Positions 3,208 through 37,410 of a stretch of 48,260 bases of DNA are shown here, piece after piece. A program made the position numbers and the translations under genes. The DNA is from a virus. The stretch spans positions 1 to 48,260 of IMG/VR virus record IMGVR_UViG_3300032770_000032; one strand, given 5' to 3'. The notes below the pieces were generated by a model. That model saw nothing but the letters and a program-made list of their open reading frames with translations. It searched no databases and was not told where the DNA came from. Numbering within the stretch: position 1 is the first letter of the stretch; each line of letters starts with the position of its first letter.

Positions 3208-4914
3208 CTATTTTCTCTCCGTTCTGACCTTGTTGAGATAGGCGTTTGTGATCGTGGTGTCGGCGGCTCCGAAGTCTCCTGGTCCGATCTCATCAACAAA
3301 GATATTGGGGTCCTTGTTGTCCCCTTGAGAAAACTGTCCGTGTGTGACGGTGAACGTGGTTCGCCAGGCCGACGGGAATGTCCACTCGTGATCGTAGCCC
3401 TCGATGTAAAAGAGTTTCTTCCTGGAGCCTTGGAGAGATGGGTCGTTCAGCACCACGAGAGCCTTGCCGAGTTCGGCTTCGAGAACTCCGGTGCAGGTGA
3501 TCGTCCCGACGTCGTAGAGATGATTCGCGTAGTTCATGTCGTAGACCTGAATCATAAACGCTTTGAAAAGCGCGAAATCCGGCTCTGGCGCTTGAACGGC
3601 AGTGCCGTCGGCTGCCTGGGCATAGCAGAAGTCGAGAAGCTGATCGAATCGCTTCAGCCCATATCGCTGAATGGAGTCGCGCCGGAATGTGGGGTTCGCG
3701 ATAGCGGTCTCTTTGACGTTGGCGACTTTCGAGTAGGCATATTCGAACGATTGTTGCGTGCGAAGCCAAAACATATTCATGCGCGAGTGATCGTCTTTAC
3801 CGAGGTCCTCGTAGATGATTTCGGCGGGCGATATCTCCACAAAGCTCGTCGTACCGAGGTCCTGCAAGGTTTGATAGTGACCTTTGAGCGATGGACGAGC
3901 CGCCGAATCCTCTGAGCCGAACTGCGAGCCGGATGGGTTCTTGTTCAGGAAGAACGGCGTGTTTAGAGGGCGCGGACGGAGCACGAGAGTTGGCTTTGCA
4001 TTTCCGTCCTGATCTCTGATCTCATCGACAAACACTTCATTCACGAGTTCATTACACGACCGCTGAACCATCTGCCACACGGAGCCCGAAGACTCCGGCG
4101 AGAGCATGTTGCGAGCCTTGAATCCTGGGAGACCCGGCGTGATCACACGCTTGAGAATGTCGTAGTAGGACGGTTTGGATGAACCGAGCGCGAAGCTATC
4201 GACGCCGAATAGATTGGCGACCTCAGAGGGAATCCGCCATTGTCCGAGGGACTGAGTCTTCTGCGAGTTGAGTTGGGTGCCAGGACCGAGAAAAATATCG
4301 AGAACCTGTTTGACCATCGTCGAAGGATTGCCCGTGATCTCAAGACCTGCCGTCCTCAGAGCCACGTCGAGCGTGGATTCCTGAGTCACATATGGGTCAA
4401 ACCAGATATCGGTCTCCTCAAGTGCTTTCGCGCTGGAGCGACCCGACACCACGAACGACAGAGTGACCTTATCAGAGTTCTCATCCTTTTGGAGAGTCCG
4501 CGAGACCCGGTCGATATTGCCGAGCATGATCAGGTTTTGCGTGTCGGTTTCGTTTGATTTCTTCTGGCGATATTTGTCGAAAATGTAGATCGCAACCCAG
4601 TCGCCAGGCGAGAGTACGGTCTTCCAGTTCTGTGTGGGCTTCAGGTGAAGCTCGAATGTGCCGGACGCTTGCGAGAGACTCTTTGACACTTTCATCGAAG
4701 CGACTTCGTCCTCGATCACGCCGGTTTGACATTGGAACACCGTCGAGTCAGGGAACACGGTATTGGTCACATTCGTCGGTACGCCGAAATTCTGTTTGAC
4801 GTAGTGAAAGTATTTGACCGAAACAAACGACGTCCGCGAGCCGAGCACACGACGCTGCGCTGGGAACGAAGTGAACGGTGTCTTCCTATTGTTTAAGACG
4901 TCTTCAGTGGACAC
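3208..4914 (-). CDS. Baseplate hub protein (gp27/gpD-like)
   Basis: 568 residues, starting at GTG with an AGGGAG site; the start overlaps the end of the tape-measure gene by 11 bases. Residues 60-170 are beta-rich with a SLSQASGTFELHLKP and WKTVLSPGDWVAIYIFD pattern, characteristic of the hub proteins that form the platform between tail tube and spike. A C-terminal segment (LFYIEGYDHEWTFPSAWRT) also resembles gpD-type hubs. Position between tape measure and spike is the usual one. Family assignment is by pattern and synteny. Confidence 0.8.
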   Translation of the reverse strand: MSTEDVLNNRKTPFTSFPAQRRVLGSRTSFVSVKYFHYVKQNFGVPTNVTNTVFPDSTVFQCQTGVIEDEVASMKVSKSLSQASGTFELHLKPTQNWKTVLSPGDWVAIYIFDKYRQKKSNETDTQNLIMLGNIDRVSRTLQKDENSDKVTLSFVVSGRSSAKALEETDIWFDPYVTQESTLDVALRTAGLEITGNPSTMVKQVLDIFLGPGTQLNSQKTQSLGQWRIPSEVANLFGVDSFALGSSKPSYYDILKRVITPGLPGFKARNMLSPESSGSVWQMVQRSCNELVNEVFVDEIRDQDGNAKPTLVLRPRPLNTPFFLNKNPSGSQFGSEDSAARPSLKGHYQTLQDLGTTSFVEISPAEIIYEDLGKDDHSRMNMFWLRTQQSFEYAYSKVANVKETAIANPTFRRDSIQRYGLKRFDQLLDFCYAQAADGTAVQAPEPDFALFKAFMIQVYDMNYANHLYDVGTITCTGVLEAELGKALVVLNDPSLQGSRKKLFYIEGYDHEWTFPSAWRTTFTVTHGQFSQGDNKDPNIFVDEIGPGDFGAADTTITNAYLNKVRTERK

Positions 4915-7078
4915 CGACTCCCTTTCCTACGCGGCCTGGGCGACCGCCACGCGAAGTGGTTGAGATAACCTGAGTGAGTTGCCTGATCGCCATTGTGTTC
5001 TCTGACGTGGCCTCGGTATTGTCGTCGGAGCTATCGGAGAGTCCCGCGACACCGCCCGTATTGGCATCGAGATTCGGATTTTTCGCAATCTTCTCTCGTG
5101 CTTTCGCTATCGCCTGATCGCCGGTCAGATTCGCCATCATTTTGTCTTCGCCGGTTCCGTACATGCTGTTGAACTCATCGTCGCTCGTCGAACCGGGCAT
5201 CCACGACGGCAGCATATTTGAGAGTCGAGCAATTCCGCGCTCGGCCATGTTTGACTTCTGACCATAGCGATTTGTTTGCGTCGTGTATTTATCGAGGAGC
5301 GGATTGGCAATGTACTTACCCGCGCCATAGCCAGCGAGACCCGCAGCGCCAACGGCAGCGCCGCCGAGTAGCATTCCACCAACGCCCATTCCACCTGCGG
5401 CAGCGGCACCGCCTTCGACAGCGGCAGCACCTTCCGCACCGGCAGCGCCCTCAGCCGCTTCACCGGCACCGACACCGAACTTCTTGAGAATGGATTTGAT
5501 CGTGTAGGCTCCGACCGCTGCGGTTCCAAGTCCGATGGCCGCGCCGCCAATATCAGCCGCATGGCCGCCAGAGAGTTTGTTGATCGCATCGACGATATCT
5601 TTGCCGATGCTGAAGACGGCATCCGAGAGGTCCTCAACGCCTTGCTCGATAGATTGTTGAACCGTCGAATCGAGATCGAGAACTCTGCCGTCGATGGAGT
5701 CCATCGTCGTTTGCAGCTTGTCCTCTGGGCTCATCGTGGCTTTTTGAAAGTCCTTCTCAGAGAGACCGGCTTTCGCGAGATTGCCGCCCGATTTGATCGC
5801 CTTCGCAGCGATCTCCATACCGCCCTCACCCTTGAGACCAAGGCGCTGCATCACTTCATAAAGCTGGTTGTCCGGGCTCATGCCCTTTGTGGCACCCACG
5901 GCGTTCTTGACGAGGTTCGAGAGCACCCCGCCAGGTCCACCCCTGAAAGCTCGCATCGTGCCCTTGGCGCCGATACCAGAGAGCATCTGCATGGTCTCAG
6001 GTCGCAGGGTCGCAAAGAGGCCCATCGTGCGCCGCTGTTCGATTGCTGCGGGTCCTACGCCGCCGCCTGCGGCGCCCTGGATGGCTCGTGCGGCTTGCGC
6101 TTGCTGGAAGCGGTCGCCCTTCTGGAAAGCGTCATTCAGGCCCTTGATCTGGTCGAATGCTTTGGACGGGTCAGATTTGAAGAATGGCAGAGTCGAGAGG
6201 GCCGCCGCAAAGCCATTCAGCGACTCCGAGTCCACGGTGATTCCGTTATGGCTCATCTCCTCAAGGGCCGCCGAGGACTCCTGTAGGAACTCCCCGATAC
6301 GCGAACCTTCGAGTTTTGCCGCAACCGCAGCGCCAATAGTTTGACTGAGGTACTTTGTCTCCGTGCCAGAGCCGAGATTTTTTCTCGCGACCGTCATTGC
6401 ATTGGCGGTCTCACCACCCTGAATGCCGTAAGCTCTCTGCACCTTCTCAGAGACGTCGGTCAGATTGCCAAGGTCCGCCGCTGAGAGATTGCGACCGACG
6501 GCTCGCTGAGTTTCGAGCATTCGTGCGCGGCGTTCTTCCGGTGTGAATCCGAGTCTTGATCGCTCGGTCGCCGTCGTCGATGAACCGCCGAGTTCGCGGA
6601 TACCGATGCGCTCCTTTGCCATCTGCACGCGCTTCGTGTAGATCGCCATAGCGCCGATTGCGAGACCGAGGCTCTTTGCCATCGTGGAGATAGAGCCAAG
6701 GACTCCACCACCGCCCGCGCCTTCAGACTCCTCAGCCTTCGCACCGAGGCCGATTTTCGCGACCTCTTGTTTTTGTTTTTTCAGTTCTTTGACCGCGCCG
6801 GTTAGCTTCTCAACGCCAGCGATGGACTCTTCGAGGCGCTTGGGGTCCATGATCGAACCCTTGCCGACCTGCTCAAGACGCTTGTTGAGACCGTTGAGTT
6901 TCGTCTCGGCTTGCTTGATCTGCCGGTCCAACTGCTCGCCGAAAAGCTTTTTGAAACCCTCAGCGGCTTGCGGGGTGAGCTTGATCTTTGTGAGACCCTC
7001 GACAGTTTTCTTCGCCTGATCGACGGCCTTTTTCAGTGAACCGATATCCGCCGATATGGAAATCTTGGCCTGTTTCAT
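4904..7078 (-). CDS. Tail tape measure protein
   Basis: 724 residues. The N-terminal 100 residues are a Lys-rich coiled coil; the middle is Ala/Gly-rich and helical; residues about 500-600 hold hydrophobic Gly/Ala segments (around GGAAIGLGTAAVGAYTI and GGMLLGGAAVGAAGLAGYG) that could insert in membrane. This is the usual make-up of tape-measure proteins, which set tail length and later reach the inner membrane. Its ATG overlaps the stop of the chaperone ORF (ATGA). With about 0.15 nm per helical residue it predicts a tail near 100 nm, an inference. Confidence 0.87.
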   Translation of the reverse strand: MKQAKISISADIGSLKKAVDQAKKTVEGLTKIKLTPQAAEGFKKLFGEQLDRQIKQAETKLNGLNKRLEQVGKGSIMDPKRLEESIAGVEKLTGAVKELKKQKQEVAKIGLGAKAEESEGAGGGGVLGSISTMAKSLGLAIGAMAIYTKRVQMAKERIGIRELGGSSTTATERSRLGFTPEERRARMLETQRAVGRNLSAADLGNLTDVSEKVQRAYGIQGGETANAMTVARKNLGSGTETKYLSQTIGAAVAAKLEGSRIGEFLQESSAALEEMSHNGITVDSESLNGFAAALSTLPFFKSDPSKAFDQIKGLNDAFQKGDRFQQAQAARAIQGAAGGGVGPAAIEQRRTMGLFATLRPETMQMLSGIGAKGTMRAFRGGPGGVLSNLVKNAVGATKGMSPDNQLYEVMQRLGLKGEGGMEIAAKAIKSGGNLAKAGLSEKDFQKATMSPEDKLQTTMDSIDGRVLDLDSTVQQSIEQGVEDLSDAVFSIGKDIVDAINKLSGGHAADIGGAAIGLGTAAVGAYTIKSILKKFGVGAGEAAEGAAGAEGAAAVEGGAAAAGGMGVGGMLLGGAAVGAAGLAGYGAGKYIANPLLDKYTTQTNRYGQKSNMAERGIARLSNMLPSWMPGSTSDDEFNSMYGTGEDKMMANLTGDQAIAKAREKIAKNPNLDANTGGVAGLSDSSDDNTEATSENTMAIRQLTQVISTTSRGGRPGRVGKGVGVH

Positions 7079-7611
7079 CCGCCTCCCAGCGTGGCGAAGT
7101 CCTCTTCGAACTCATCGCCGCCTTTGACCGACCTTTTCTCTCCACCCAGGTCTCGCTCGAATTTTGAGTTCGGAAGGTTCCGGCCCAGGTTTTCGAGGAT
7201 GCGCTTCTCTTCCTCTGCGCTGATCTCTCCTTTATCGGTTTGAAACCGTTTTAGAATGTCTTTTTGTTTCTCAGCATACCGACGTTTCATCCTGGCCTCG
7301 TGCTCGGCTGGCATTGTGCCGTCCCACTCAGGCGCCGACCTGGACATGAACTTGCCGATCTCCTGCGGATTGTGCTCGTAGTAGTCCTCGTACATCTGGA
7401 CCAGAAGCTCTTCGAGAGTGTGGTCCTCGTAGGCTTTCGGAGCCGATTTATACTTCCGCTCCCACCAACGCTCTAACGACCGCTCGCCATCCGAGAGATT
7501 CGAGATGGCGATTAGGTGGAGATTGTCATTGTTGAAATTTGCGAGATCGTTACGGAGCAGGTACGGCAGCGTCTTTAGTCTCATTGCCCGCCTCGACTTC
7601 TTCGGGGACAC
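7075..7611 (-). CDS. Tail assembly chaperone, second reading frame
   Basis: 178 residues from a GTG at 7611; an ATG at 7584 with a GAGG site 6 bases upstream is an alternative. It lies between the first chaperone ORF and the tape measure, the classical place of the lambda T / P2 E' extension. It contains RSLERWWERKYK and a long charged helical tail. The frame is open upstream to about 7668 and overlaps the first ORF by about 118 bases, so it may be made as a frameshift fusion of about 296 residues. The frame relation is +1 (or -2), not the common -1. Confidence 0.75.
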   Translation of the reverse strand: MSPKKSRRAMRLKTLPYLLRNDLANFNNDNLHLIAISNLSDGERSLERWWERKYKSAPKAYEDHTLEELLVQMYEDYYEHNPQEIGKFMSRSAPEWDGTMPAEHEARMKRRYAEKQKDILKRFQTDKGEISAEEEKRILENLGRNLPNSKFERDLGGEKRSVKGGDEFEEDFATLGGG

Positions 7612-7969
7612 CGCCCATGAGCTTGTTCCGCCACTTCGCTTCGAACTCCATGCACTTGTTGTAGATCGTCACCACAACATTCGCATCGTAGAGATCGGAG
7701 CCGTAGTCGGACTCCTTCCACCAATCCGGGTAATCCTTCAGGGTGAATCGCAGAGTTGCCAGAGCCTCGTTGAGCGCCTTCGCGTCTTCATCGAGGTTGA
7801 TCAAATCCATATTTAGCCGGGTTTTCAGAGCCTCAATCGCGGCTCTCTCACGAAGCGTAGGACGGCGAAACATGAAATGGCCGACCCACACGATCTGCGA
7901 TTCTTCGCCTTTGATCTGAATGTCAAAGGTGTGCTCCATGCTGGGGAGCGAATACTTTTTTTGCTTCAT
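7550..7969 (-). CDS. Tail assembly chaperone, first reading frame
   Basis: 139 residues with a GAGG ribosome site. The layout (a small protein after the tube gene and before the tape measure, overlapped by a second ORF) is that of the gpG or P2 gpE chaperones that coat the tape measure during tail assembly. The sequence has MFRRPTLRERAAIEALKT and KDYPDWWKES segments, typical of this class. The end of the frame contains GTC CCC GAA, where slippage of the CCC tRNA by +1 would move ribosomes into the second ORF. Confidence 0.78.
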   Translation of the reverse strand: MKQKKYSLPSMEHTFDIQIKGEESQIVWVGHFMFRRPTLRERAAIEALKTRLNMDLINLDEDAKALNEALATLRFTLKDYPDWWKESDYGSDLYDANVVVTIYNKCMEFEAKWRNKLMGGVPEEVEAGNETKDAAVPAP

Positions 7970-8028: not shown

Positions 8029-8043
8029 ATGTGATCATCACAT
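8029..8043. repeat. 15-bp palindrome, copy A
   Basis: ATGTGATCATCACAT is a perfect inverted repeat with a 1-base centre, touching the stop codon of the tube gene. Together with two flanking bases (8027-8043) it is identical over 17 bases to a site at 29958-29974. It may be a regulator or nuclease site; function unknown. Confidence 0.5.
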
Positions 8044-8456
8044 TAAAAGCCGGATTCGTCGGTGGACTTGATTCCTTTGAAGGACCAAGTCTCGGTCATT
8101 ACTCCCCGAGCATCGACAGAGGTTTGCCGACTTTCGAGTTTCACACCCTCCATGAGCAGAATCACCGCGTTGGTCGCCTGGTCGATCACTTCCGCCGTCA
8201 ACACGCCCTGCGTGAGCAGGTTCGCGAGAGAGGACATGATGCCCAGTTGTTTCACGCTTTGGTTCGCCACTCGGAAGGTCTGACATGAGAGGTCCACGCG
8301 ATACCCGGTCTCGGCGTATTCGAGGACTTGAATCATGTCGAGGACGTTCACTTCCTCAAGCTGGACGTTTTCGTTGTAGCTGACGTTTGAGGCGTAGGCG
8401 ATTTGATTTCCAGCTATCCGAAAAATCGCCTTCGCACCTGTCATTACTATTGACAT
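8043..8456 (-). CDS. Tail tube protein
   Basis: 137 residues with a GGGGG ribosome site 5 bases before ATG. It follows the sheath gene directly, as tube genes do in contractile phages, and has the expected size. The sequence is a beta-rich fold beginning GAKAIFRIAGNQIAYASNVSY, followed by LEEVNVLDMIQVLEYAETGY, a pattern shared with T4 gp19-like and XkdM-like tubes. It would polymerise into the inner tube through which DNA passes. Confidence 0.85.
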   Translation of the reverse strand: MSIVMTGAKAIFRIAGNQIAYASNVSYNENVQLEEVNVLDMIQVLEYAETGYRVDLSCQTFRVANQSVKQLGIMSSLANLLTQGVLTAEVIDQATNAVILLMEGVKLESRQTSVDARGVMTETWSFKGIKSTDESGF

Positions 8457-8483: not shown

Positions 8484-10628
8484 TTACGCGCTCTGCTGAA
8501 TGTCTGCCAGGTAAATCGTCGGCAGGATAAAGTCGATTCCTTGAACCGGAGTCACACAGACATTGATGATCGCAGTGTCACCTTGAATGTCCACGTTAAG
8601 GTTCTTGTAACCGAGTTGTTTGTTGTCGTCGTCGCCCACGATAATGTCAGCGGCGAGGTACTGCGACATGCGAGCCTTGATGAAGTTCGCAATCGCTTCC
8701 GCAGAGCCGGTCTTCGCCTTCGTACCAGTGAAGGTGAGATCGAGGTTGTAGCGCAGGTCGTAGGCCACGTAGCCCGCTGCCTGAACCACAGATTCACGGT
8801 TCCACACGAAGTTCGCGTCCACCCCGTAGGTCGTGTTGCCGAGGTCGATTTTGAACCCACCGCCATCGAGAGGCTTCCCGATGGTCACGCCCGCGTTGAT
8901 CATGTCGTTGTAATCCACTCGCGGGTTCCACGATTTGTCAGCCACGAAGAGATTGTTCACGTTGATGATCTTTCCGGTCAGAGGCTCGCCGACTTCGGCG
9001 CCAGCCCGCATTCCGGCAGCGATACATGCGAAAGCCCAAGGGTCCTTGTCCGCGAGAGTTCCGGTCGAATCGAGCACCGTCACGCTCTGTCCAAACATCA
9101 ACGTGTACGCGGACTGGAGAGTCTGCGCGGCGGCGATCAGGCCCGCCTTGTTGGTGAGCTTGGATACGAAGCAGGACCGCTCGGAGCGACCGACAGTGGA
9201 CCAACCCCAGATCGCGTGGCTCGCGGCGAGAGCATTGATCGAGTCGATGCTCAGAGAGCCTTGGTCCGCAGAGATCAGAGGGACGACCACGTTGATTCGC
9301 TCTTCTTGGAAGGCCGTGAAGCCGTTGGCGAAAATCGAGTTGCTGCTTACGCCATCGACAGCGCCGCTCAAGAAGACCGGGCTTGAGGTCACACCGAGGG
9401 TGCCGATCACGTTCGAAATCTTGGTCGCGTTCACCAACTGCGAAACCGCGTTGATGTTGTCGGCAATCGCCTGTACGTCAGCGCGAATTGCTCCAGCGAC
9501 CGTTTTGATCGGCAGGTTGAGGTAATAGTCGAGACGGTTCGTGTTCATGGCCGGGTTCGGGCCGAGAACGACAGCGGTGTACTTGCCGGTCGAGTTGATG
9601 AAGTCCACTAACTGTTGCAGCGTCAGCGTCGGATTTCCGTTCACGTCCTGGATGATGATGCTGAGGTTGTCCCCAGCCGCACCCGTGCAAGTCGTGGTCA
9701 GAGTCTTTGTGCTGTTGATGCCGCCCGAATCCTGGATGCTCAGAACCGCTGCCGTGCCGGAGCCGGTGTAGAGAATCGAGAATTGGTCAACGCCGCCCGT
9801 ATCGAGCATCTGCTCGTTGATGAGTCCTTGCTTGAAGGACACCACACGCGAGCCGTGGAAGCCGCGAGCGGAGCCCACGATTCCAAGGATGGTGTCGAGA
9901 GTCGATGCCGGGTCCACCTGAATCCAACCGTAATCGCGGAACGCTGCGGGAATGGCGACGGAATCGACCGCGACGTCGATGAATCCGGTGACTAAGTCCA
10001 CGCTCGCGATCACCGGCTTGCTCGGTGCCCAGTTGCCCGCGTTGTTCAGGTCCACCACCATCTGCGCTGCGGTTTGCGAGCCGGTCAGCGAACAGGTGTA
10101 GGTGTAAGACGTGCCGTTCACGATCAGGATGAGCGTATCGGTGTTTGCAACCGTGTACGGTCCTGCGATGGCGCCGTCGAGTGTGGCGTTTTGACCGATC
10201 ACCCGTCCTTGAGCAACCGAGAAGCTGTCCTGGTTTTCAGCCGAACCGTAGTTGTCCGACTTCATCGCCAGGATTCCAACCGGGCTCGAAGCGGTATTGA
10301 CCGCGTTGGCCTGAGACTGCGTCGATGGATTCGTCTTGTAGACGACAATCGTGCTCGCGCCGTTGGGAATCCGAACGTCTTTCGACGGATTCACCAAGAG
10401 ATCGAGAGCGTCAGCAATCGGGCCGGATTTGTAACGCGCTTTTGCGGATTGGATTTGCGTGCTGGTCAAAATATCCAGTACGCCAGGCTGTCCGCCAGCC
10501 GCCTCACCGATGATTCCAACCGTGCCCGTGGGCAGGAGCGGGAACCCGTTGAGGTTCTGGACGATGATCTTTGAATACGCGCCGGGGTCCAGAATCGTCG
10601 CGCCGTTGAATGTCCTTGTGATAGCCAT
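8484..10628 (-). CDS. Tail sheath protein
   Basis: 714 residues with an AAGGGGG site. The N-terminal part (TILDPGAYSKIIVQN and GTVGIIGEAAGGQPG) and the C-terminal domain (QAAGYVAYDLRYNLDLTFTG, then NFIKARMSQYLAADIIVGDDDN) are characteristic of contractile sheath subunits. The middle, around residues 130-380, is a long Thr/Ser/Asn/Gly-rich insertion that would project outward. The order sheath, tube, chaperones, tape measure is canonical. It drives contraction of the tail. Confidence 0.92.
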   Translation of the reverse strand: MAITRTFNGATILDPGAYSKIIVQNLNGFPLLPTGTVGIIGEAAGGQPGVLDILTSTQIQSAKARYKSGPIADALDLLVNPSKDVRIPNGASTIVVYKTNPSTQSQANAVNTASSPVGILAMKSDNYGSAENQDSFSVAQGRVIGQNATLDGAIAGPYTVANTDTLILIVNGTSYTYTCSLTGSQTAAQMVVDLNNAGNWAPSKPVIASVDLVTGFIDVAVDSVAIPAAFRDYGWIQVDPASTLDTILGIVGSARGFHGSRVVSFKQGLINEQMLDTGGVDQFSILYTGSGTAAVLSIQDSGGINSTKTLTTTCTGAAGDNLSIIIQDVNGNPTLTLQQLVDFINSTGKYTAVVLGPNPAMNTNRLDYYLNLPIKTVAGAIRADVQAIADNINAVSQLVNATKISNVIGTLGVTSSPVFLSGAVDGVSSNSIFANGFTAFQEERINVVVPLISADQGSLSIDSINALAASHAIWGWSTVGRSERSCFVSKLTNKAGLIAAAQTLQSAYTLMFGQSVTVLDSTGTLADKDPWAFACIAAGMRAGAEVGEPLTGKIINVNNLFVADKSWNPRVDYNDMINAGVTIGKPLDGGGFKIDLGNTTYGVDANFVWNRESVVQAAGYVAYDLRYNLDLTFTGTKAKTGSAEAIANFIKARMSQYLAADIIVGDDDNKQLGYKNLNVDIQGDTAIINVCVTPVQGIDFILPTIYLADIQQSA

Positions 10629-14808: not shown

Positions 14809-16518
14809 CTATTCAACCGTTCCTTCGAGGTCCGGCGCGAGATTTACGACAGCGGTGAGTGCATCAACCGATGCCTGAGATGCTTTCGAATCAACCGACG
14901 TTTGCGAAGAGCGGGTCTTCAAATCCACGGCAGCGGAATTTGCACCGACATGCGCGGTCAAATCCTCGTCCCACACCGCGTCCGCAATGGCGCCGGGGTC
15001 CACTTCCATATTGATATTTTTCAAAGCCACACCCGCACTGTTGGCGACATTGTGGCCGGTCAAGTCTTCGTCCCATACCGCTTCCGCGATAGTTTCTGGA
15101 GAAGCTGCACCGCCAGCGTCGGACAGATACTTGCCCGCGCTTCCGGCAGTCAAATGGCCGCTCAGAGGTTCGTCCCATACGATATTTTTCACACTACTGA
15201 TCGCGGCATCGAGATTATTGAGACGCGAATCAGACGTGAGAAGAGGATTTGTCGGAATCGCTGCGACGGCTGATTCGATGGATGCGATACCGGCATTGTC
15301 CGGCGCCACATAGCTGCCAGTCGCCAAGCGTGAACTGACCGCCACATCGAGATCGTCCAATTTCGCAGCCCGCGCCGAGGTGTAGTCAGCGTTCGACACC
15401 GCCGTAGCCGCTGGAGCGCGAGAAGAGATCGCCGCATCGAGATCATTGAGTCGCACGTCATTGGTCAATAACGGATTCGTCGGAATCGCCAGGACGTGCG
15501 CGTCAGTGGCCCTCGAAGAGATTGTCGCATCAAGGTTGTTGAGTCTCGCATCATTCGTGAGCAGAGGATTGGTCGGAATGGCGAGGACATGCGCGTCAGT
15601 GGCACGAGACGAGATCGTTGCATCGAGGTTGTTCAGACGTGCATCGTTCGTCAAAAGTGGGTTTGTCGGAATCGCCAACACATGAGCATCGGTTGCTCTC
15701 GTAGAGATCGCCGCGTCGAGGTTGTTCAAACGCGAATCGCTTGTGAGAAGCGGATTCGTCGGAATCGCGAGAACGTGTGCATCGGTCGCACGAGACGAGA
15801 TGGTCGCATCGAGATTGTCGATTTTCGCCGCACGAGCCGTGGTGTAGTCCGTCCGAATCGCATCAACCGTCTGCTGGACCGATGCAGTTTGAGTGACGGC
15901 TCGGCGCTGGGCCGCGACTGCACTGATCGTGTAATCGAAAATCACCACAAGTGCGCGAACAGTGTCAGTCGAGTTTACCGTGTAGTTGTAAGAGTACCGA
16001 CCGGCAGCATCGCGAGTCATTGCCGTTTGAGAGAGAACAGTGCCGCCCGCCGTATCTGTGATCGTGATGTTGACCAAGTTCGAATCGGGGTCCTTCGTCG
16101 CGCCAGAACCGCTGACGATTCTGAAAGTCATTTTGTAGGTCTTCGTACCGGAGTCCGGCAGAAGCAATGTTTCCGGCACGCTCCATGAAGAGATCGCGGC
16201 GTTTACAAGTGTAAACAAATCCTGGTCGATGGAGCGAACCTCAAGGTCCTCTTCGGCCCACGAATAGCTAGGGTCGATGGTCCCGAAGGTTCCATCCGTG
16301 TAAATCTCGTAGCGGATAGAGTAGAAACCTTCGACCGTCGGTATGAGAGAGTTGTTGGTATAGAGCCCGTTCGCCACATGCGAGAGCGTGAACGGTGAAC
16401 CAAGCGCGGTCATTTCAGAGTTTGCAGAGTTGTAGACCCTGGCCCGGATGCCTCGATCTGTGAGTCGGTCGGGAATCTGGAGTCTGAGAAAAACCGCTGA
16501 ATTTACTTCTGCAAGCAT
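14809..16518 (-). CDS. Fibre/whisker protein with 31-residue tandem repeats
   Basis: 569 residues with a GAGG site. Residues 1-100 and 105-200 are two beta-sandwich-like domains. Residues 235-358 are four nearly identical 31-residue repeats of the type NLDATISSRATDAHVLAIPT plus NPLLTNDARLN, followed by one degenerate copy near 420-440. The C-terminus has three AVWDE(P/D)L(S/T)GH-type repeats, common in phage fibres and whiskers. The helical repeats probably form a trimeric coiled-coil shaft. Role: host attachment or neck whisker. Confidence 0.78.
   Translation of the reverse strand: MLAEVNSAVFLRLQIPDRLTDRGIRARVYNSANSEMTALGSPFTLSHVANGLYTNNSLIPTVEGFYSIRYEIYTDGTFGTIDPSYSWAEEDLEVRSIDQDLFTLVNAAISSWSVPETLLLPDSGTKTYKMTFRIVSGSGATKDPDSNLVNITITDTAGGTVLSQTAMTRDAAGRYSYNYTVNSTDTVRALVVIFDYTISAVAAQRRAVTQTASVQQTVDAIRTDYTTARAAKIDNLDATISSRATDAHVLAIPTNPLLTSDSRLNNLDAAISTRATDAHVLAIPTNPLLTNDARLNNLDATISSRATDAHVLAIPTNPLLTNDARLNNLDATISSRATDAHVLAIPTNPLLTNDVRLNDLDAAISSRAPAATAVSNADYTSARAAKLDDLDVAVSSRLATGSYVAPDNAGIASIESAVAAIPTNPLLTSDSRLNNLDAAISSVKNIVWDEPLSGHLTAGSAGKYLSDAGGAASPETIAEAVWDEDLTGHNVANSAGVALKNINMEVDPGAIADAVWDEDLTAHVGANSAAVDLKTRSSQTSVDSKASQASVDALTAVVNLAPDLEGTVE
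15445..15816 (-). repeat. Four tandem 93-bp repeats inside fibre gene
   Basis: Four consecutive 93-bp units, each encoding NLDA(T/A)IS(S/T)RATDAHVLA and IPTNPLLT with a variable end. Copies differ mostly at third codon positions, so the protein repeat is selected while the DNA has drifted. Such repeats can gain or lose copies by recombination and change shaft length. Confidence 0.85.
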
Positions 16519-26695: not shown

Positions 26696-26849
26696 CGTCC
26701 GTTTCGGCTCCGTGTTTTTTCATCAACGCATACAGTTTAGGGTTCGTCTTTTTCATTTCAGCGAGATTAAAGTCCTCTTCCATGTCGTGGAAGTTCGGGT
26801 CGTAATCCAGTTCATCGGCATCGCTGTAGCCGTCGTTTTTCTTACCCAT
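26664..26849 (-). CDS. Small acidic hypothetical protein
   Basis: 61 residues with a GAGG site. Very acidic (rich in Asp and Glu), with a LYALMKKHG helix. It overlaps the preceding gene by 8 bases and the next by 32. Unknown function; it could bind a basic head protein. Confidence 0.6.
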   Translation of the reverse strand: MGKKNDGYSDADELDYDPNFHDMEEDFNLAEMKKTNPKLYALMKKHGAETDDADEKPTKKD

Positions 26850-29800
26850 TTGACGCCTCTCTGTGCTGGCGAGTTAGCTCTCGCCGTGCTGCCGGTGTCA
26901 GCGGAGCGTTTCGGATAAAGTGCTCACGCTGATCTGGCGGCCAACGCATTACACGTCGAATTCGCTGCGCTGTCATTCGGATATTTGTACGACCGGAGCC
27001 TACGATGCGTGGCGACCAATACTGAATCTGACGTTCGGAGATTCCCCCGCCGCCCGTACTGATGGAAGCCCTCGGAGTGACCTGGCGGGCCTGGGGTGTT
27101 GCCCGCTCGCCAGCTTGCGCGGCCTGGGCGACCCGCTGATAATTGGCTTCCAAATGCTTGACAGCCCGCTCACGGAGCGCCCGGTACGCATCGGCGTAGC
27201 GCGTGGTCGCGTTCTCCTCTTTCGAGTCCCAAGTCCCATGCCAGTGACGGCCCAAGAGATATGCTTTGCCGAGGTGACATGCCATACGAGTTGACCGGCC
27301 AGAACTGATCTCTTCCCGAGTGAGAGGATGTTCGCCTGCCGAGCCTGTGAGTGATCGCGACTGAATCTGCGCGGGCGTGAGCTTATATTGATGGACGTTC
27401 TTTATGTACTTCTTCCCGTTCGTAAATGCCGCGAAGTGGACCGGCTCGGTGAACGCCTGTAGGTCCTCGGTCGTCAGATGCACGCCATTCTCAGCGCAGA
27501 AAAGAGCGAAATTGTTTCGCATCGAATTTAGCTCGCTCGGCGATGAGAAGCTGAAGCCCTGATTGGCCCAGTTATATCCGCCGACGTCGAGGGCCGCTGT
27601 GACCTCGACAACGCCGCCATTTGGCTGACGTCGCATGAGTTCACGCTGTCCACGGTTAATGAGATCGCCGACCTTCGCGGTGCCACGATAATCGGCGCGG
27701 ACTTCCATGAAGGAATTGTAGATATGAGGGCGACCCTCTTTCTTTGACCACTGCCGAGACCAATCGCGCATGATCGGATTGCCGTCTTCGTCGTAGACTT
27801 GAAACGACATGCTAATGTGAGCGCCGCGAGCTTCAGCGGATTTGATTTTTACCTTGAGACCCTCGGCCTCGAAGTTGTACGGCCACTCTTCCTTTTTCAG
27901 CGACTTGCCAAAGATTTGTTTGATCGACTGATCGAGTTCGCGGGCCATAGCAACCCGGTCTCCACCGCGCTCCATCAAGGATGCCATATGGAAAGCCATA
28001 GAGCCGCGCAGTTCGCCGAGTTCGCGCTCCTCGCGCTCTTTCTCTTCGCGGGCACGCTGTTTGGCACGCTCGCGGATACCTTTGAGGTCTTTCGGCTTGT
28101 GCTCGGCGGCGCGGGCCGTGCGCTTCATCTCCTCAGCGTACTCTTTTGGAATGACACCTTTGTCAGCGAGCCCTTTGATGGCGCGGTTGTAGATCATATT
28201 GCCGTAAGTGCCGCCATTGCTGGTCACGTCGCCATTTTGAGAAGTGAGATCGCCCTGCGCTTGCTCGACTCTCTTCACCGACTCGTGGAGCTTTTTCAGC
28301 ATACCGCGAATCGTTTTCTGATCGCCGATCTGTGGAGCTTCATTCAGAATCGGGAGAAGCCGTTGGGCAATCGGGGTGGACGAGTGTTGGGTCAGGTAAT
28401 CCTTTGCGTGCTTGAACGCTGCCGCTATCTCTCCGTGGGCCTTTGTAAGTTGTTCGCCTGTGAGTTCCTTGTCGGCATCGTCGGTCGCCTCTGCGCGGGC
28501 AACGGTGCGTTCGAGTTCGGACTTCTTATGCCCGATTGCCTCAAGGATAGCTGCGTGATGGCGGCGCTCTTCAGGAGTTCCGTGTTGGGCGAGGAGCCGA
28601 TGGTGTCCAATGTCCTCTTCACCCATCTCTTGAATGTTTGAGACCAACTCGTGATGGTGCGCTCGCTCATGCTCTTCTCCGTGCTCGGCCAGGTGCCTAT
28701 GAGCGGCGATATCCTCTTCGGTCAGCCGATGGTGACGCTCGCCCTCGTGATAAATGTAAACCCATTCGCCGGTCGGCCCTTTGTACTTGCGGATGTATTT
28801 GTGAGGGCGCGATTTGAGGAGATCGGGGACATACGACTTGGACTGATTTGTCTCCTCGCTGTAGTCCACGTCTTTGATTTTTTCTTTGGTCTGATATTGC
28901 TGTTTGGTCGCGATACCGCCGTGAGAGAAATCCTTACCCTGAGCCTTGGCCTGCTCGCGATAGTTATTGATCGAACCGCCTGCGCGATTCTTCCCGCCAG
29001 GAATAACGAAGTAGTTCGGGTCGTCGGCCTGACCTTTGGATTTGATGCAGAGAGCTTCGAGCACGACGTTTTTCGGCGAGTGCAGATTCTCTTTGACGTG
29101 TTTCGGGAGACCGCCCTTGTGCTTAATCCACTTCCAGCTTTCGACCTCTTTATCGGGGTCGTTGACCATCGAGGTTTTCGGGCGCTCCTGAACCTCGTAT
29201 TTGAAAGCATGGATGGTCTTCTCTTTGCCGGTGTGAGTTTTTACCTTTGTGGTCTTGAGATGCTTGAGCTTGTCCGCCTCGATGCCCGACTCTTCTTTGA
29301 GTTCGCGCTTACCGCCTTCGTGGGCGTCTTCGTCTTTTTCGAGGTGTCCACCGGGGAGAGTCCATCGTCCATTGTCACGGCGCTTGCCCATAAGAATGTG
29401 ATCGCCATGAATAACGCCCACCGAAGCAACTGTGCCGTCCGCTCCCTTGCCCAGAAATTTGTCGTCACGAGTTCGCTTGCCCTCGTCATTGTATTCCTTC
29501 ACCTCTCGCGTGCGTGGCTCTTTGCCGGTCATTTTGAGGTTGGTCTGCTCATCGGACCCGTAGCTCGAACCATCCGCACCCATGTTGCCCTTGAGAGTTG
29601 CGGATGCTCCGCGAACCTGCTGGACCTTGCCGACGCCGCCAACCCAATACTGGGTCTTTGTTTCCTTGCGAGCGGGCATTTTGTGATCGGAGTAATACTG
29701 ACGGGTGTCGTTATAGGTGCGCGTGGTGGACTTCACCGCCTCGTCGCCCTCTTGTTTGAGTTCCTCTTTGACCGGGCCTGGGCGCTCCTGCCGGTTGCGC

Positions 29801-30033
29801 TCCTTGGTCTCCTGAGCACGCTCCTGCATCTTTACGTCGGCGTCCTTGTACTTCTCCCAGTCCGGGTGACGGTCGAGTACGTCCTCACGACGGCGAATCA
29901 TACGAGCGATTCTCCGGGCCATTTTCGCGCCCTGGAGTTGGTCCTCTTCGCTCTTTCTTATGTGATCATCACATAAAATGTAGAAATCACCCGTTGCCAA
30001 TGACCTCTCCGATCTCGCGTTTGATTTCGGCAA
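26842..30033 (-). CDS. Giant head-module protein with Nudix and GNAT-like domains
   Basis: Up to 1063 residues; start uncertain (TTG at 30033, TTG at 30000 after GGAGAGG, or ATG at 29922 with AGGG). Residues 197-330 are a Nudix domain; the Nudix box at 229-251 fits Gx5Ex7REUxEExGU exactly. Residues 412-428 carry HKYIRKYKGPTGEWVYIY, and two His/Glu-rich helical repeats follow at about 438-500. Residues 740-835 (YRGTAKVGDLI, VTAALDVGGYNWANQGFSF) resemble a GNAT acyltransferase fold. The rest is charged helix. Multi-domain, low-complexity proteins of this type are often packaged and injected. The substrate (a nucleotide derivative such as an (d)NTP, NADH or capped RNA) is unknown. Confidence 0.8.
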   Translation of the reverse strand: MPKSNARSERSLATGDFYILCDDHIRKSEEDQLQGAKMARRIARMIRRREDVLDRHPDWEKYKDADVKMQERAQETKERNRQERPGPVKEELKQEGDEAVKSTTRTYNDTRQYYSDHKMPARKETKTQYWVGGVGKVQQVRGASATLKGNMGADGSSYGSDEQTNLKMTGKEPRTREVKEYNDEGKRTRDDKFLGKGADGTVASVGVIHGDHILMGKRRDNGRWTLPGGHLEKDEDAHEGGKRELKEESGIEADKLKHLKTTKVKTHTGKEKTIHAFKYEVQERPKTSMVNDPDKEVESWKWIKHKGGLPKHVKENLHSPKNVVLEALCIKSKGQADDPNYFVIPGGKNRAGGSINNYREQAKAQGKDFSHGGIATKQQYQTKEKIKDVDYSEETNQSKSYVPDLLKSRPHKYIRKYKGPTGEWVYIYHEGERHHRLTEEDIAAHRHLAEHGEEHERAHHHELVSNIQEMGEEDIGHHRLLAQHGTPEERRHHAAILEAIGHKKSELERTVARAEATDDADKELTGEQLTKAHGEIAAAFKHAKDYLTQHSSTPIAQRLLPILNEAPQIGDQKTIRGMLKKLHESVKRVEQAQGDLTSQNGDVTSNGGTYGNMIYNRAIKGLADKGVIPKEYAEEMKRTARAAEHKPKDLKGIRERAKQRAREEKEREERELGELRGSMAFHMASLMERGGDRVAMARELDQSIKQIFGKSLKKEEWPYNFEAEGLKVKIKSAEARGAHISMSFQVYDEDGNPIMRDWSRQWSKKEGRPHIYNSFMEVRADYRGTAKVGDLINRGQRELMRRQPNGGVVEVTAALDVGGYNWANQGFSFSSPSELNSMRNNFALFCAENGVHLTTEDLQAFTEPVHFAAFTNGKKYIKNVHQYKLTPAQIQSRSLTGSAGEHPLTREEISSGRSTRMACHLGKAYLLGRHWHGTWDSKEENATTRYADAYRALRERAVKHLEANYQRVAQAAQAGERATPQARQVTPRASISTGGGGISERQIQYWSPRIVGSGRTNIRMTAQRIRRVMRWPPDQREHFIRNAPLTPAARRELTRQHREASNG
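29281..29349 (-). other. Nudix box segment
   Basis: Encodes residues 229-251 of the giant head protein, with every fixed position of the Nudix consensus present (G229, E235, R243, E244, E247, E248, G250). The glutamates bind the metal needed for hydrolysis, so the enzyme is probably active. Confidence 0.85.
29958..29976. repeat. 19-bp palindrome, copy B
   Basis: TTATGTGATCATCACATAA, a perfect inverted repeat with 9-base arms and a 1-base centre, lies 11 bases after the stop of the 81-residue gene. If the giant protein starts at ATG 29922, it is intergenic, like copy A at 8029-8043. The first 17 bases match copy A exactly. Confidence 0.5.
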
Positions 30034-34210: not shown

Positions 34211-35315
34211 TGGCTTCTCCCTTGGGCGCCGGTTTCTTGGCCGGTGTTTCAGACCCTTGCTCTTTCGGAGTTTCGGCATGGATTCGGCTCAACGTGTGGC
34301 CGGGGAGTCGCTCCTTCATAAGCTGGGTCACGCGCTCGATGGCCTCACCGTGACTCTGCGACTCGACCTGCGGGAAGCGATGTTTGTACTCCTGCCCGTT
34401 GTGGGTGAAGTGGACTTCGACCGCGTGGTGCTTGGGCTTCATATTGGCGGACAGTTGGTGCATGAGCTTACGGGTTCCGCCGCGAGACCCTTCGTCCCCA
34501 CCGTGCATTTTGACGTGTTCGCGATGCGCCTGGTCAAGTTCCTTTGGCGGCTTCCCATCGTACAGGTGAGAGACCATCTTGTGCGTGTGCTCGGCGGCGG
34601 CTCGCACGGCTTGGTTTTTAGCCTCGTCTATGGTCGCTTGGTGACGTGTCTTCTCCTTGATGGCCTCTTCGATGGCCAGGCGCTTTGATGCGGTGCCCTC
34701 TAGCTCCCTGGCAGCATGAGCCTGGTTTTTCGGGTCTGGGTGCTGGACCCATTTGGAGAACTTCCGGTGTTCGAGCCCGGCGACCGGCACCCACTTGCCC
34801 TCAGCCATTTTTTTGTACTTGTTGCCGTCCGGCCCGACATGGACCGTGCCGACGGGGACTGGCTTGCCCTTAAATATAAAGTCCAAGTGGGACTTCCTGA
34901 ACTGAGAGAATCTCGATTGCGATTCGAGGACCGGCATGATGCGGCCCTGGAAGAGCGGATGGATTGCGCGAGGGTTCGATTCATCGCGGTCGTTCACGAT
35001 GGAGTAAAACTCGCGCACGGTCTCATATCCACCGGCTGAACGTGGGCGGGTGAATGTCTGGCCGCCATAGTTCACGGTCTCGGCTTGTTCGGCCCAATAG
35101 GTGTCCGGGTATGGCATGTAGCCGCCGCTCGGGTGCTGCATGTACGGATTGTAGTATTGGCTCTCCGGCGTCACTTGCACCGGGGAGAATGGGTCAAACG
35201 AGAGAGCCTTCATCAAGTCCTGCTCGATTGCTTCGACTTTTGTTTTCGGGCGTGTGGCGAGACCTTTGACAATGTGTTCGTCGAGGATGCTCGACAGTTT
35301 ATCCAAATCTTTCAT
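34203..35315 (-). CDS. Head-module protein, polyvalent-like
   Basis: 370 residues with a GGAG site. The N-terminal part is Tyr/Pro-rich (around QYYNPYMQHPSGGYMPYP), the middle holds a GNKYKKMAEGKWVPVAGLEH module related to the KY...W.Y modules of two other head proteins, and the C-terminal 150 residues are charged helix and His-rich. Overlaps the sigma-factor gene by 17 bases. Possibly an internal capsid protein; not recognised. Confidence 0.65.
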   Translation of the reverse strand: MKDLDKLSSILDEHIVKGLATRPKTKVEAIEQDLMKALSFDPFSPVQVTPESQYYNPYMQHPSGGYMPYPDTYWAEQAETVNYGGQTFTRPRSAGGYETVREFYSIVNDRDESNPRAIHPLFQGRIMPVLESQSRFSQFRKSHLDFIFKGKPVPVGTVHVGPDGNKYKKMAEGKWVPVAGLEHRKFSKWVQHPDPKNQAHAARELEGTASKRLAIEEAIKEKTRHQATIDEAKNQAVRAAAEHTHKMVSHLYDGKPPKELDQAHREHVKMHGGDEGSRGGTRKLMHQLSANMKPKHHAVEVHFTHNGQEYKHRFPQVESQSHGEAIERVTQLMKERLPGHTLSRIHAETPKEQGSETPAKKPAPKGEANA

Positions 35316-35976
35316 CTGGCTCCTCTTCCATCGCCGCTATCGGAACGCCGTCCTGGATAACCAAGCGTTCATCGCAAACATCGCAACGGAACTCGGTCGC
35401 TTTGTCACTGACTATGTTTTCAGATTGACATACCGGGCATAGGTGAGTGGTCAGGCCGAAGCCGAGTGGTCCGTCTTTGCGATAGTAGGCGTAGACGGCC
35501 TTTTTGATTTTCGCGAGCAGTTGATTCGCTCGGCTTTCAGAGAACTCGAACTCGGTTGCGATCTCGCGGATTGACTTGCCCTCGATACGGCATCTGAGGA
35601 TATCGAGTTCGCGGGGGGACAGAGCGATCAAGCAAGCAAACCGCTGTATGTCGATGCCTGAGTCCATTTGTTTATTTGCATTGCCGTCGTCAGAGATCAG
35701 CGCGAAGTCGAAATCGTCCACGCGCATCGGTCTGCGGGTTTTCGCCCGCTCGTCGCCGATCATCTTTCTGACCTCGTCAAGCACCGCGCCCTTGATACGA
35801 TACTCCGCGAAGGTTTTGAACTTCACGTTCCGACCGGGGTCGAATCGTTTCAGGGCTTGCGAGTAGCCGAGCATTCCGGCTGAGATCAGGACCGAGGTGT
35901 CGAGCCGCGTGAGATTCTTCTCCTTCAGCGTTCGGAGCACCACGATCTTAATCCACTTGACGATCTCTGGAGTCAT
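35299..35976 (-). CDS. Sigma-70 family factor with C-terminal zinc ribbon
   Basis: 225 residues. Residues 10-75 hold region 2: SVLISAGMLGYSQALKRFDP and KFKTFAEYRIKGAVLDEVRK, the helices that bind core polymerase and the -10 element. Residues 117-165 hold region 4: LSPRELDILRCRIEGKSIRE and a helix-turn-helix SESRANQLLAKIKK. There is no room for region 3, so it is closest to FliA/SigF-type or small phage sigma factors. Residues 180-201 are CPVC...CDVC, a zinc ribbon not usual on sigma factors. It would recruit host polymerase to late promoters. Confidence 0.85.
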   Translation of the reverse strand: MTPEIVKWIKIVVLRTLKEKNLTRLDTSVLISAGMLGYSQALKRFDPGRNVKFKTFAEYRIKGAVLDEVRKMIGDERAKTRRPMRVDDFDFALISDDGNANKQMDSGIDIQRFACLIALSPRELDILRCRIEGKSIREIATEFEFSESRANQLLAKIKKAVYAYYRKDGPLGFGLTTHLCPVCQSENIVSDKATEFRCDVCDERLVIQDGVPIAAMEEEPDERFG

Positions 35977-36925: not shown

Positions 36926-37381
36926 TCAACTCAAAAACAAAAGCTGTTCGGCCTCGCGGCGCCGAAGCAATCCTTCAACCACCTTGCCGTTATCGTGGTC
37001 CCACTTGGGGAACTCCGCTGCGACCTCTGCGGCAGGTGCGCTGAAGTTGAGCAGTTTGAGCATGGTCGATGTTTCGAATGCGCCCACACCAACATTGTAC
37101 GCGAACGAGCAGAGGGCGCAAAACTGATTGTCAGTGACCGGGACCTTGATGTGAGCACGGACGACGTTGGCGACCGAGGTCAACTCGGCGGCCATCCATT
37201 GATCGGCCTCTTCCTGTGAGCAGGCGTCGGATGCGCAGACTGGGCGTCCGCTGATACGGGTCGTTCCCCACCCGATTGTCCACACGCCGCCCTCGTCCTG
37301 GTAAGCTTTTAATTTACAGCCCTCAAACTCTTTGATGATCGCGATTGCTGGCAAAAGGGAAGGCAATGTCGTTAGGTCCAT
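36926..37381 (-). CDS. Endolysin, GH24 (T4-like) lysozyme
   Basis: 151 residues from ATG 37381 (GAGG site). The catalytic triad is Glu20, Asp29 and Thr35 with the exact Ex8Dx5T spacing of GH24 muramidases; the next segment WTIGWGTTRISG is also typical. Size equals that of lambdoid R21/P22-type lysozymes. It hydrolyses the N-acetylmuramic acid linkage of peptidoglycan at lysis. The N-terminus has only a short SLLPAIAII stretch and no clear signal, so a holin is needed. Confidence 0.92.
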   Translation of the reverse strand: MDLTTLPSLLPAIAIIKEFEGCKLKAYQDEGGVWTIGWGTTRISGRPVCASDACSQEEADQWMAAELTSVANVVRAHIKVPVTDNQFCALCSFAYNVGVGAFETSTMLKLLNFSAPAAEVAAEFPKWDHDNGKVVEGLLRRREAEQLLFLS

Positions 37382-37410
37382 ACGTCCACCTCGCATGAAC
37401 CCTTTATCGG

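Follow-up and report, generated by a model that had tools for sequence, protein, structure and literature searches.

The frameshift that yields the tail assembly chaperones G and G-T is among the best-kept features of long-tailed phages. In phage lambda, gpG and gpGT form a two-part chaperone that is encoded between the major tail protein and the tape measure, and a -1 slip provides an essential ratio of fusion to G (PMC5009743). A +1 shift is described for SPO1-like phages: according to the GenBank record of SPO1 (Herelleviridae), gp11.1 is expressed only within a joint product, by +1 slippage, the chaperone of phage Adastra is annotated as a +1 frameshift product, and the genome announcement of phage Moonbeam calls the +1 shift of its chaperone unusual (PMC4299906). 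Codons of the form UUU_Ynn have been described as liable to slip +1 in bacteria, and influenza A uses UCC_UUU_CGU as its shift cassette (PMC5009743). Two separately expressed chaperone ORFs are found in the Microbacterium cluster EA phages (PMC7302621), which are siphophages of another lineage and for which the cited passage describes neither a lost site nor a switch between modes. Frameshifted chaperones, +1 shifts in SPO1-like phages and the separate pairs of the Microbacterium EA phages are already known. A literature search conducted largely without subscription papers returned no description of UUU_Y conservation or of a switch from frameshifting to initiation, and within that limited search such a switch inside one family, with the lost site visible in the alignment, appears to be new.

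The DNA analyzed here is the complete 48,260-base IMG/VR virus record IMGVR_UViG_3300032770_000032 of an uncultivated phage (referred to as the window). Based on the order of the ORFs and matches to PHROG profiles, a tail operon was located on the minus strand in which the G-T pair sits between the tail tube and tape measure genes:

8484 to 10628, minus strand: tail sheath protein, 714 aa (PHROG_279 tail sheath, E 8e-37)
8043 to 8456, minus strand: tail tube protein (PHROG_985 virion structural protein, E 7e-12; 63-80% identity to close relatives)
7550 to 7969, minus strand: G, tail assembly chaperone, 139 aa (PHROG_1038 tail assembly chaperone, E 4e-7)
7075 to 7584, minus strand: T, second chaperone domain, 169 aa from ATG 7584 (homology to the T ORFs of relatives)
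4904 to 7078, minus strand: tape-measure protein, 724 aa (by position and relatives; same position in L002 and L004)
3208 to 4914, minus strand: hub (ORF list and PHROG)

The end of T overlaps the start of the tape-measure gene (GGATGA), and GAGGAtggtATG precedes the start of G itself. The order sheath, tube, G, T and tape measure is shared with SPO1 (gp10.2 and gp10.2-gp11.1), which also has a related G and the +1 relation, and the position of the two-part chaperone is shared with lambda. Elsewhere on the minus strand, the window encodes a 569-aa protein (14809-16518) whose translation contains several near-identical units of about 30 residues (DAHVLAIPTNPLLT...), a 1063-aa protein between the head genes (26842-30033) with a NUDIX domain at residues 207-305, and, at 35299-35976 and 36926-37396, a sigma-70 region 2/4 protein with the gene of a phage lysozyme nearby; the sigma-70 protein may serve in late-gene transcription.

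Together, G and T make up the two-part tail assembly chaperone of a phage with a contractile tail. G is homologous to known tail chaperones according to both its PHROG profile and its predicted structure: an AlphaFold2 model (pLDDT 85) matches predicted phage proteins in a structure search of BFVD, including Orf100 of Lactobacillus phage LP65 (E 1.5e-5) and the tail assembly chaperone of Bacillus phage JL (E 2.3e-4), and the same model as query gave no match in the PDB at E<=0.001. T alone matched no PHROG tail family and its model is of poor quality (pLDDT 70, pTM 0.39). An iterated T HMM grouped the window T at E<=1e-3 with the T of loci that carry the UUU_Y site described below, and the alignment with relatives (A8) shows 22-56% identity (22-27% to L112 and L114). 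Judged from these sequence comparisons, T is homologous to frameshift-encoded T domains.

In the window, the open T frame extends from 7668 to 7075; the stop preceding it is the TGA at 7671-7669, and its first ATG is at 7584, 32 nt before the stop of G. The original prediction for this locus had described two overlapping chaperone ORFs with the second in +1 (equivalently -2) to the first, and the 358-nt offset between the starts of G and T bears this out. The -1 frame of the overlap holds stops, and a scan in the phase of G confirmed the accompanying statement that the overlap of the window lacks an X_XXY_YYZ heptamer. The following elements were located in and around the overlap:

7585 to 7668, minus strand: open T frame upstream of ATG 7584, 84 nt
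7628 to 7633, minus strand: TGG CGG, aligned with the UUU_Y (+1) site found outside the clade of the window (alignment of 120 G proteins, codon read-out)
7601 to 7606, minus strand: CCC GAA, part of GTC CCC GAA at 7609-7601, the previously proposed +1 slip site, not supported
7591 to 7594, minus strand: GAGG, Shine-Dalgarno-like, 6-nt spacer to the ATG at 7584-7582

The window does not have the properties of a -1 programmed frameshift of the lambda kind (T is in +1 and there is no heptamer) and probably makes no fusion. It also lacks the properties of a SPO1-type +1 frameshift, with neither a UUU_Y nor an AAA_AG slip codon at the aligned place. The overlap of SPO1 contains TCC_TTT_CGT, whereas the window has TGG CGG at that place, which cannot re-pair in +1, and a Shine-Dalgarno sequence with an ATG for T.

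No close relatives of G or T were found by direct search of viral contigs, tblastn against named phages returned only four records for G (E 0.02-0.4, all Bacillus or Staphylococcus; two of them, PSU4 and Goe26, were later placed in the family) and two Flavobacterium records for T (E 0.8), and a profile scan of genome contigs with the tube alignment gave no match. About 190 viral-contig loci were gathered with the sheath and then with tube and sheath alignments, named phages were added by tblastn, and HMMs of tube, G and T were grown over several rounds to locate the genes. The resulting set holds 210 loci and records (the window once, the duplicate L001 removed, some contigs represented by several overlapping loci), with G in 185 and both G and T in 170, the latter forming 116 clusters at 95% nucleotide identity. 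Fifteen loci had G without a T match; four named phages among them (L006, L128, L130, and L131) were added on the basis of an open +1 frame or their annotation. The final 120 distinct pairs consist of a 55-row clade that includes the window and 65 viral contigs and phages outside it.

Outside the 55-row clade, 60 out of 65 distinct G-T pairs have TTT followed by C or T at a single aligned codon of G, allowing a deviation of one codon from the column, and a CGN codon follows in 35 of these cases. The remaining five pairs carry AAA_AG in four cases and neither motif in L124. T is in +1 and open at the site in all 64 slip-codon loci outside the clade. The motif resembles the influenza cassette, and its conservation makes UUU_Y a family-wide candidate +1 frameshift site. 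It is found in SPO1-like, Twort-like, Listeria, Enterococcus and Lactobacillus phages, in proteobacterial phages and in many environmental contigs, with L112, L106, L114, L141, and L202 among its carriers, and spans the Herelleviridae of Bacillus, Staphylococcus, Listeria, Enterococcus and Lactobacillus as well as PHB04-like phages. Among the 24 named phage records examined, 20 contain TTT_Y in a +1 overlap, including SPO1 (L211); the motif is present in the Thermus phage Cumys (L129), where the assignment of T is putative, and no TTT_Y +1 pair was found in Troll (L132), the Leptospira record (L133) and Mx1 (L008). The AAA_AGT or AAA_AGC at the aligned place in L110 (4707-4911), L123, L142, and L143 is possibly an alternative +1 slip codon. 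Nested within the UUU_Y group, L124 (4806-4956) has no slip codon at this position and offers no ATG for T, which may reflect a sequencing error or another mechanism. The original prediction that +1 slipping is relevant to this chaperone pair therefore holds for the family, in which UUU_Y is nearly universal outside the clade of the window, through a site that the window itself lacks.

Within the clade, the picture is different. None of the 34 overlapping rows contains TTT_Y in the stretch of overlap where T is open. Of the 56 loci in classes OV, SEP and M1, which comprise the 55-row clade and L124, 49 carry TGG at the aligned codon. Three modes were distinguished. In 34 loci, including the window, the +1 overlap is kept without UUU_Y. 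In 14 loci, T starts within a few nucleotides of the stop of G or after it, in any of the three frames (e.g., L041 without overlap and L103 with a GTG behind TAAGGAGG), and free T thus has clear parallels in the clade. In the remaining seven loci, T is in -1 with G_GGA_AAA/C or A_AAC_CCT before the stop of G (G_GGA_AAA in L049) and has no clear start. Behind the sheath gene, the members of this -1 heptamer group (L046, L049, L055, L057, L059, L060, and L064) also have separate ORFs that give three tail-tube-like matches. T lies in the frame of G directly behind its stop in L086, L088, L097, and L103; the starts of L086 and L088 are weaker than that of L103, and readthrough of the stop may occur there. 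In the family as a whole, L029 and L030, which lack a clear slip codon as well as a clear start, and L124 do not match any of the modes well.

We consider it probable that T of the window and its close relatives starts at its own ATG inside G, with no frameshift, and that the +1 frame was inherited from a UUU_Y ancestor; the two proteins that are joined in related phages are probably made separately in the window phage. Within the subclade to which the window belongs, an in-frame ATG or GTG in the overlap is present in all 24 loci, and a Shine-Dalgarno match of at least 4 nt is present in 19 of them, with L038, L066, L068, L071, and L072 as the five that lack a 4-nt match. L069 carries a GTG, likewise a valid start codon (GAGGTGGGCGGTG), exactly where the others have the ATG, GAGGCGGGCAATG is common to the window and L010, and L016 has GAGGCTGGCAATG. 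An LxxLLR-like N-terminus of T follows directly behind the start in the window, L010, L012, L016, L067, and L069. In 15 of the 24 loci, a stop closes the T frame at most 18 nt ahead of the start (in several of them the TAG inside GTA-GAG), which keeps a slip at the CCC position or farther upstream from reaching T. For the window, the 84 nt upstream of the ATG are open in the T frame, which leaves an upstream slip unblocked.

The excess of starts was evaluated with synonymous-codon shuffles of G, which treat loci without regard to relatedness. A start with a Shine-Dalgarno match occurs in 22 out of 35 overlapping +1 loci without a slip codon versus 11.9 expected (P 5e-5), compared with 9 out of 64 versus 10.8 expected in the UUU_Y control group. 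Chance alone provides such a start in about a third of the loci (11.9/35), and a single locus proves little. An in-frame ATG or GTG lies between the aligned site and the stop of G in 35/35 of the overlaps without a slip codon versus 35/64 in the UUU_Y group. For the P1 class, which was defined by its own slip codon, the log10 P of -34 from the shuffle test is circular, and the tree-based count of 60 out of 65 was used instead. Conservation of the two frames in nine loci (ungapped) was 0.33 for G versus 0.24 for T in the eight codons before the start, and 0.22 for T versus 0.21 for G in the nine codons from the start.

The original prediction had given precedence to a slip of a proline tRNA from CCC to CCG at 7606-7603, yielding a G-T fusion, with ATG 7584 and its GAGG as the competing model. 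GTC CCC GAA is present in the overlap as described, re-pairing from CCC to CCG is feasible, the window has an open T frame at the CCC, and +1 slipping at a proline CCC codon is known from Listeria phages (PSA, A118, and A500) and SPP1 (PMC5009743, PMC6316719). Those shifts, however, act in capsid or major-tail genes and not in chaperones, and have a stop (CCC_UGA or CCC_UAA) or a stimulator such as a pseudoknot behind the CCC, where the window has GAA. Of the two precedents cited for unusual shifts, the -2 shift of Mu is stated in the literature (PMC5009743), and the +1 shift of Listeria phage PSA exists but belongs to a different set of genes. Furthermore, CCC_G occurs at chance level (51 in 11,621 codons of 30 window ORFs, or about 0.17 expected per 39-codon overlap), and a CCC in the open T stretch ahead of the start is found in only 3 of 24 close relatives, including the window. 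In relatives that keep the overlap, the position reads CCT (L010) or CCA (L012), is absent (L016 and L004), or is followed directly by a T-frame stop (L002, with an aligned CCC GAA), and it was this loss of the site that had been named beforehand as speaking against the slip. A fusion through CCC_G is accordingly very improbable, and the ATG with its GAGG, matched by a start in 24 of 24 subclade loci, is the better fit.

A related possibility is that +1 or -2 slips at other, lineage-specific sites of the overlap produce some fusion, alone or beside internal initiation. The +1 relation is retained in 24/24 subclade loci, AAA_R, GGG_N or CCC_N occurs somewhere in 18 of the 24 overlaps, and frameshifting and coupling can coexist (PMC3711429). 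No such codon was found at a shared position, though, six of the 24 overlaps contain none, the overlap of L016 has shrunk to 12 codons, and the +1 frame is expected as a relic of a UUU_Y ancestor, which together make this explanation improbable, if less so than the CCC slip. In release factor 2, frameshifting is stimulated by a Shine-Dalgarno-like element; a slip stimulated by GAGG in the same manner was considered for the window and rejected as no codon close behind the GAGG can re-pair in +1. The window is a single uncultivated contig, and an assembly error or a broken gene could in principle create a shifted overlap, but the identical layout in 23 further distinct subclade loci from many samples shows that the frame relation is not an assembly or sequencing error and leaves this explanation with a negligible probability.

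The direction of change was addressed with a tree built from tube, G and T with the site left out. The tree is unrooted and the root was set at the midpoint. The modes of making T cluster on the tree: the 55-row clade contains no UUU_Y member, and a branch with an SH-aLRT of 100 separates it from every UUU_Y locus, with L124 as the one locus without a slip codon on the UUU_Y side. Without the long branches, two changes still suffice for the slip-codon group, L124 accounting for one of them. Because of the midpoint root, the loss of UUU_Y in the clade of the window is something we infer, and loss is favored over gain because UUU_Y is spread across the Herelleviridae and the PHB04-like phages. 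The reverse scenario, an ancestral state with a separate start for T and a later gain of UUU_Y frameshifting outside the clade, draws on the same lack of a true root. The wide spread of UUU_Y speaks against it, with carriers among SPO1-like, Twort-like, Listeria, Enterococcus and Lactobacillus phages as well as proteobacterial phages and many environmental contigs; it would also make the +1 overlap, for which no shift would be needed, a matter of coincidence. We regard this reversal as unlikely, although the least unlikely of the alternatives. Comparison of the aligned sites suggests that the +1 frame of the window is what remains of a UUU_Y frameshift that has since disappeared. On balance, we also lean towards the broader view that the whole contractile-tailed clade dropped the covalent G-T fusion, with internal initiation, fully separate genes and, in a single branch, a newly acquired -1 heptamer taking the place of the +1 shift at UUU_Y.

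Under the preferred reading, an internal start that replaced an inherited frameshift, T of the ancestor would have been reached by a +1 slip at UUU_Y in G, at a codon that is now UGG. T would have kept the position given by the slip and gained a ribosome-binding site. In the window phage, a ribosome would bind the GAGG within the end of the G gene and start T at ATG 7584, such that G and a free T protein would be made from one mRNA at a ratio set by the strength of initiation and perhaps also by coupling to the translation of G.

If this is correct, the G:T ratio can be set by initiation, and free T must do the work of T without its G domain, even though the fusion is thought to be needed for tail assembly. 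For annotation, a shifted overlap by itself does not amount to a frameshift, and the UUU_Y site is worth including in prediction tools for the phage family of the window. A family that mixes +1 slips, -1 slips, internal starts and separate genes would offer natural material for asking what is needed, the fusion as such or just the ratio between its two parts.
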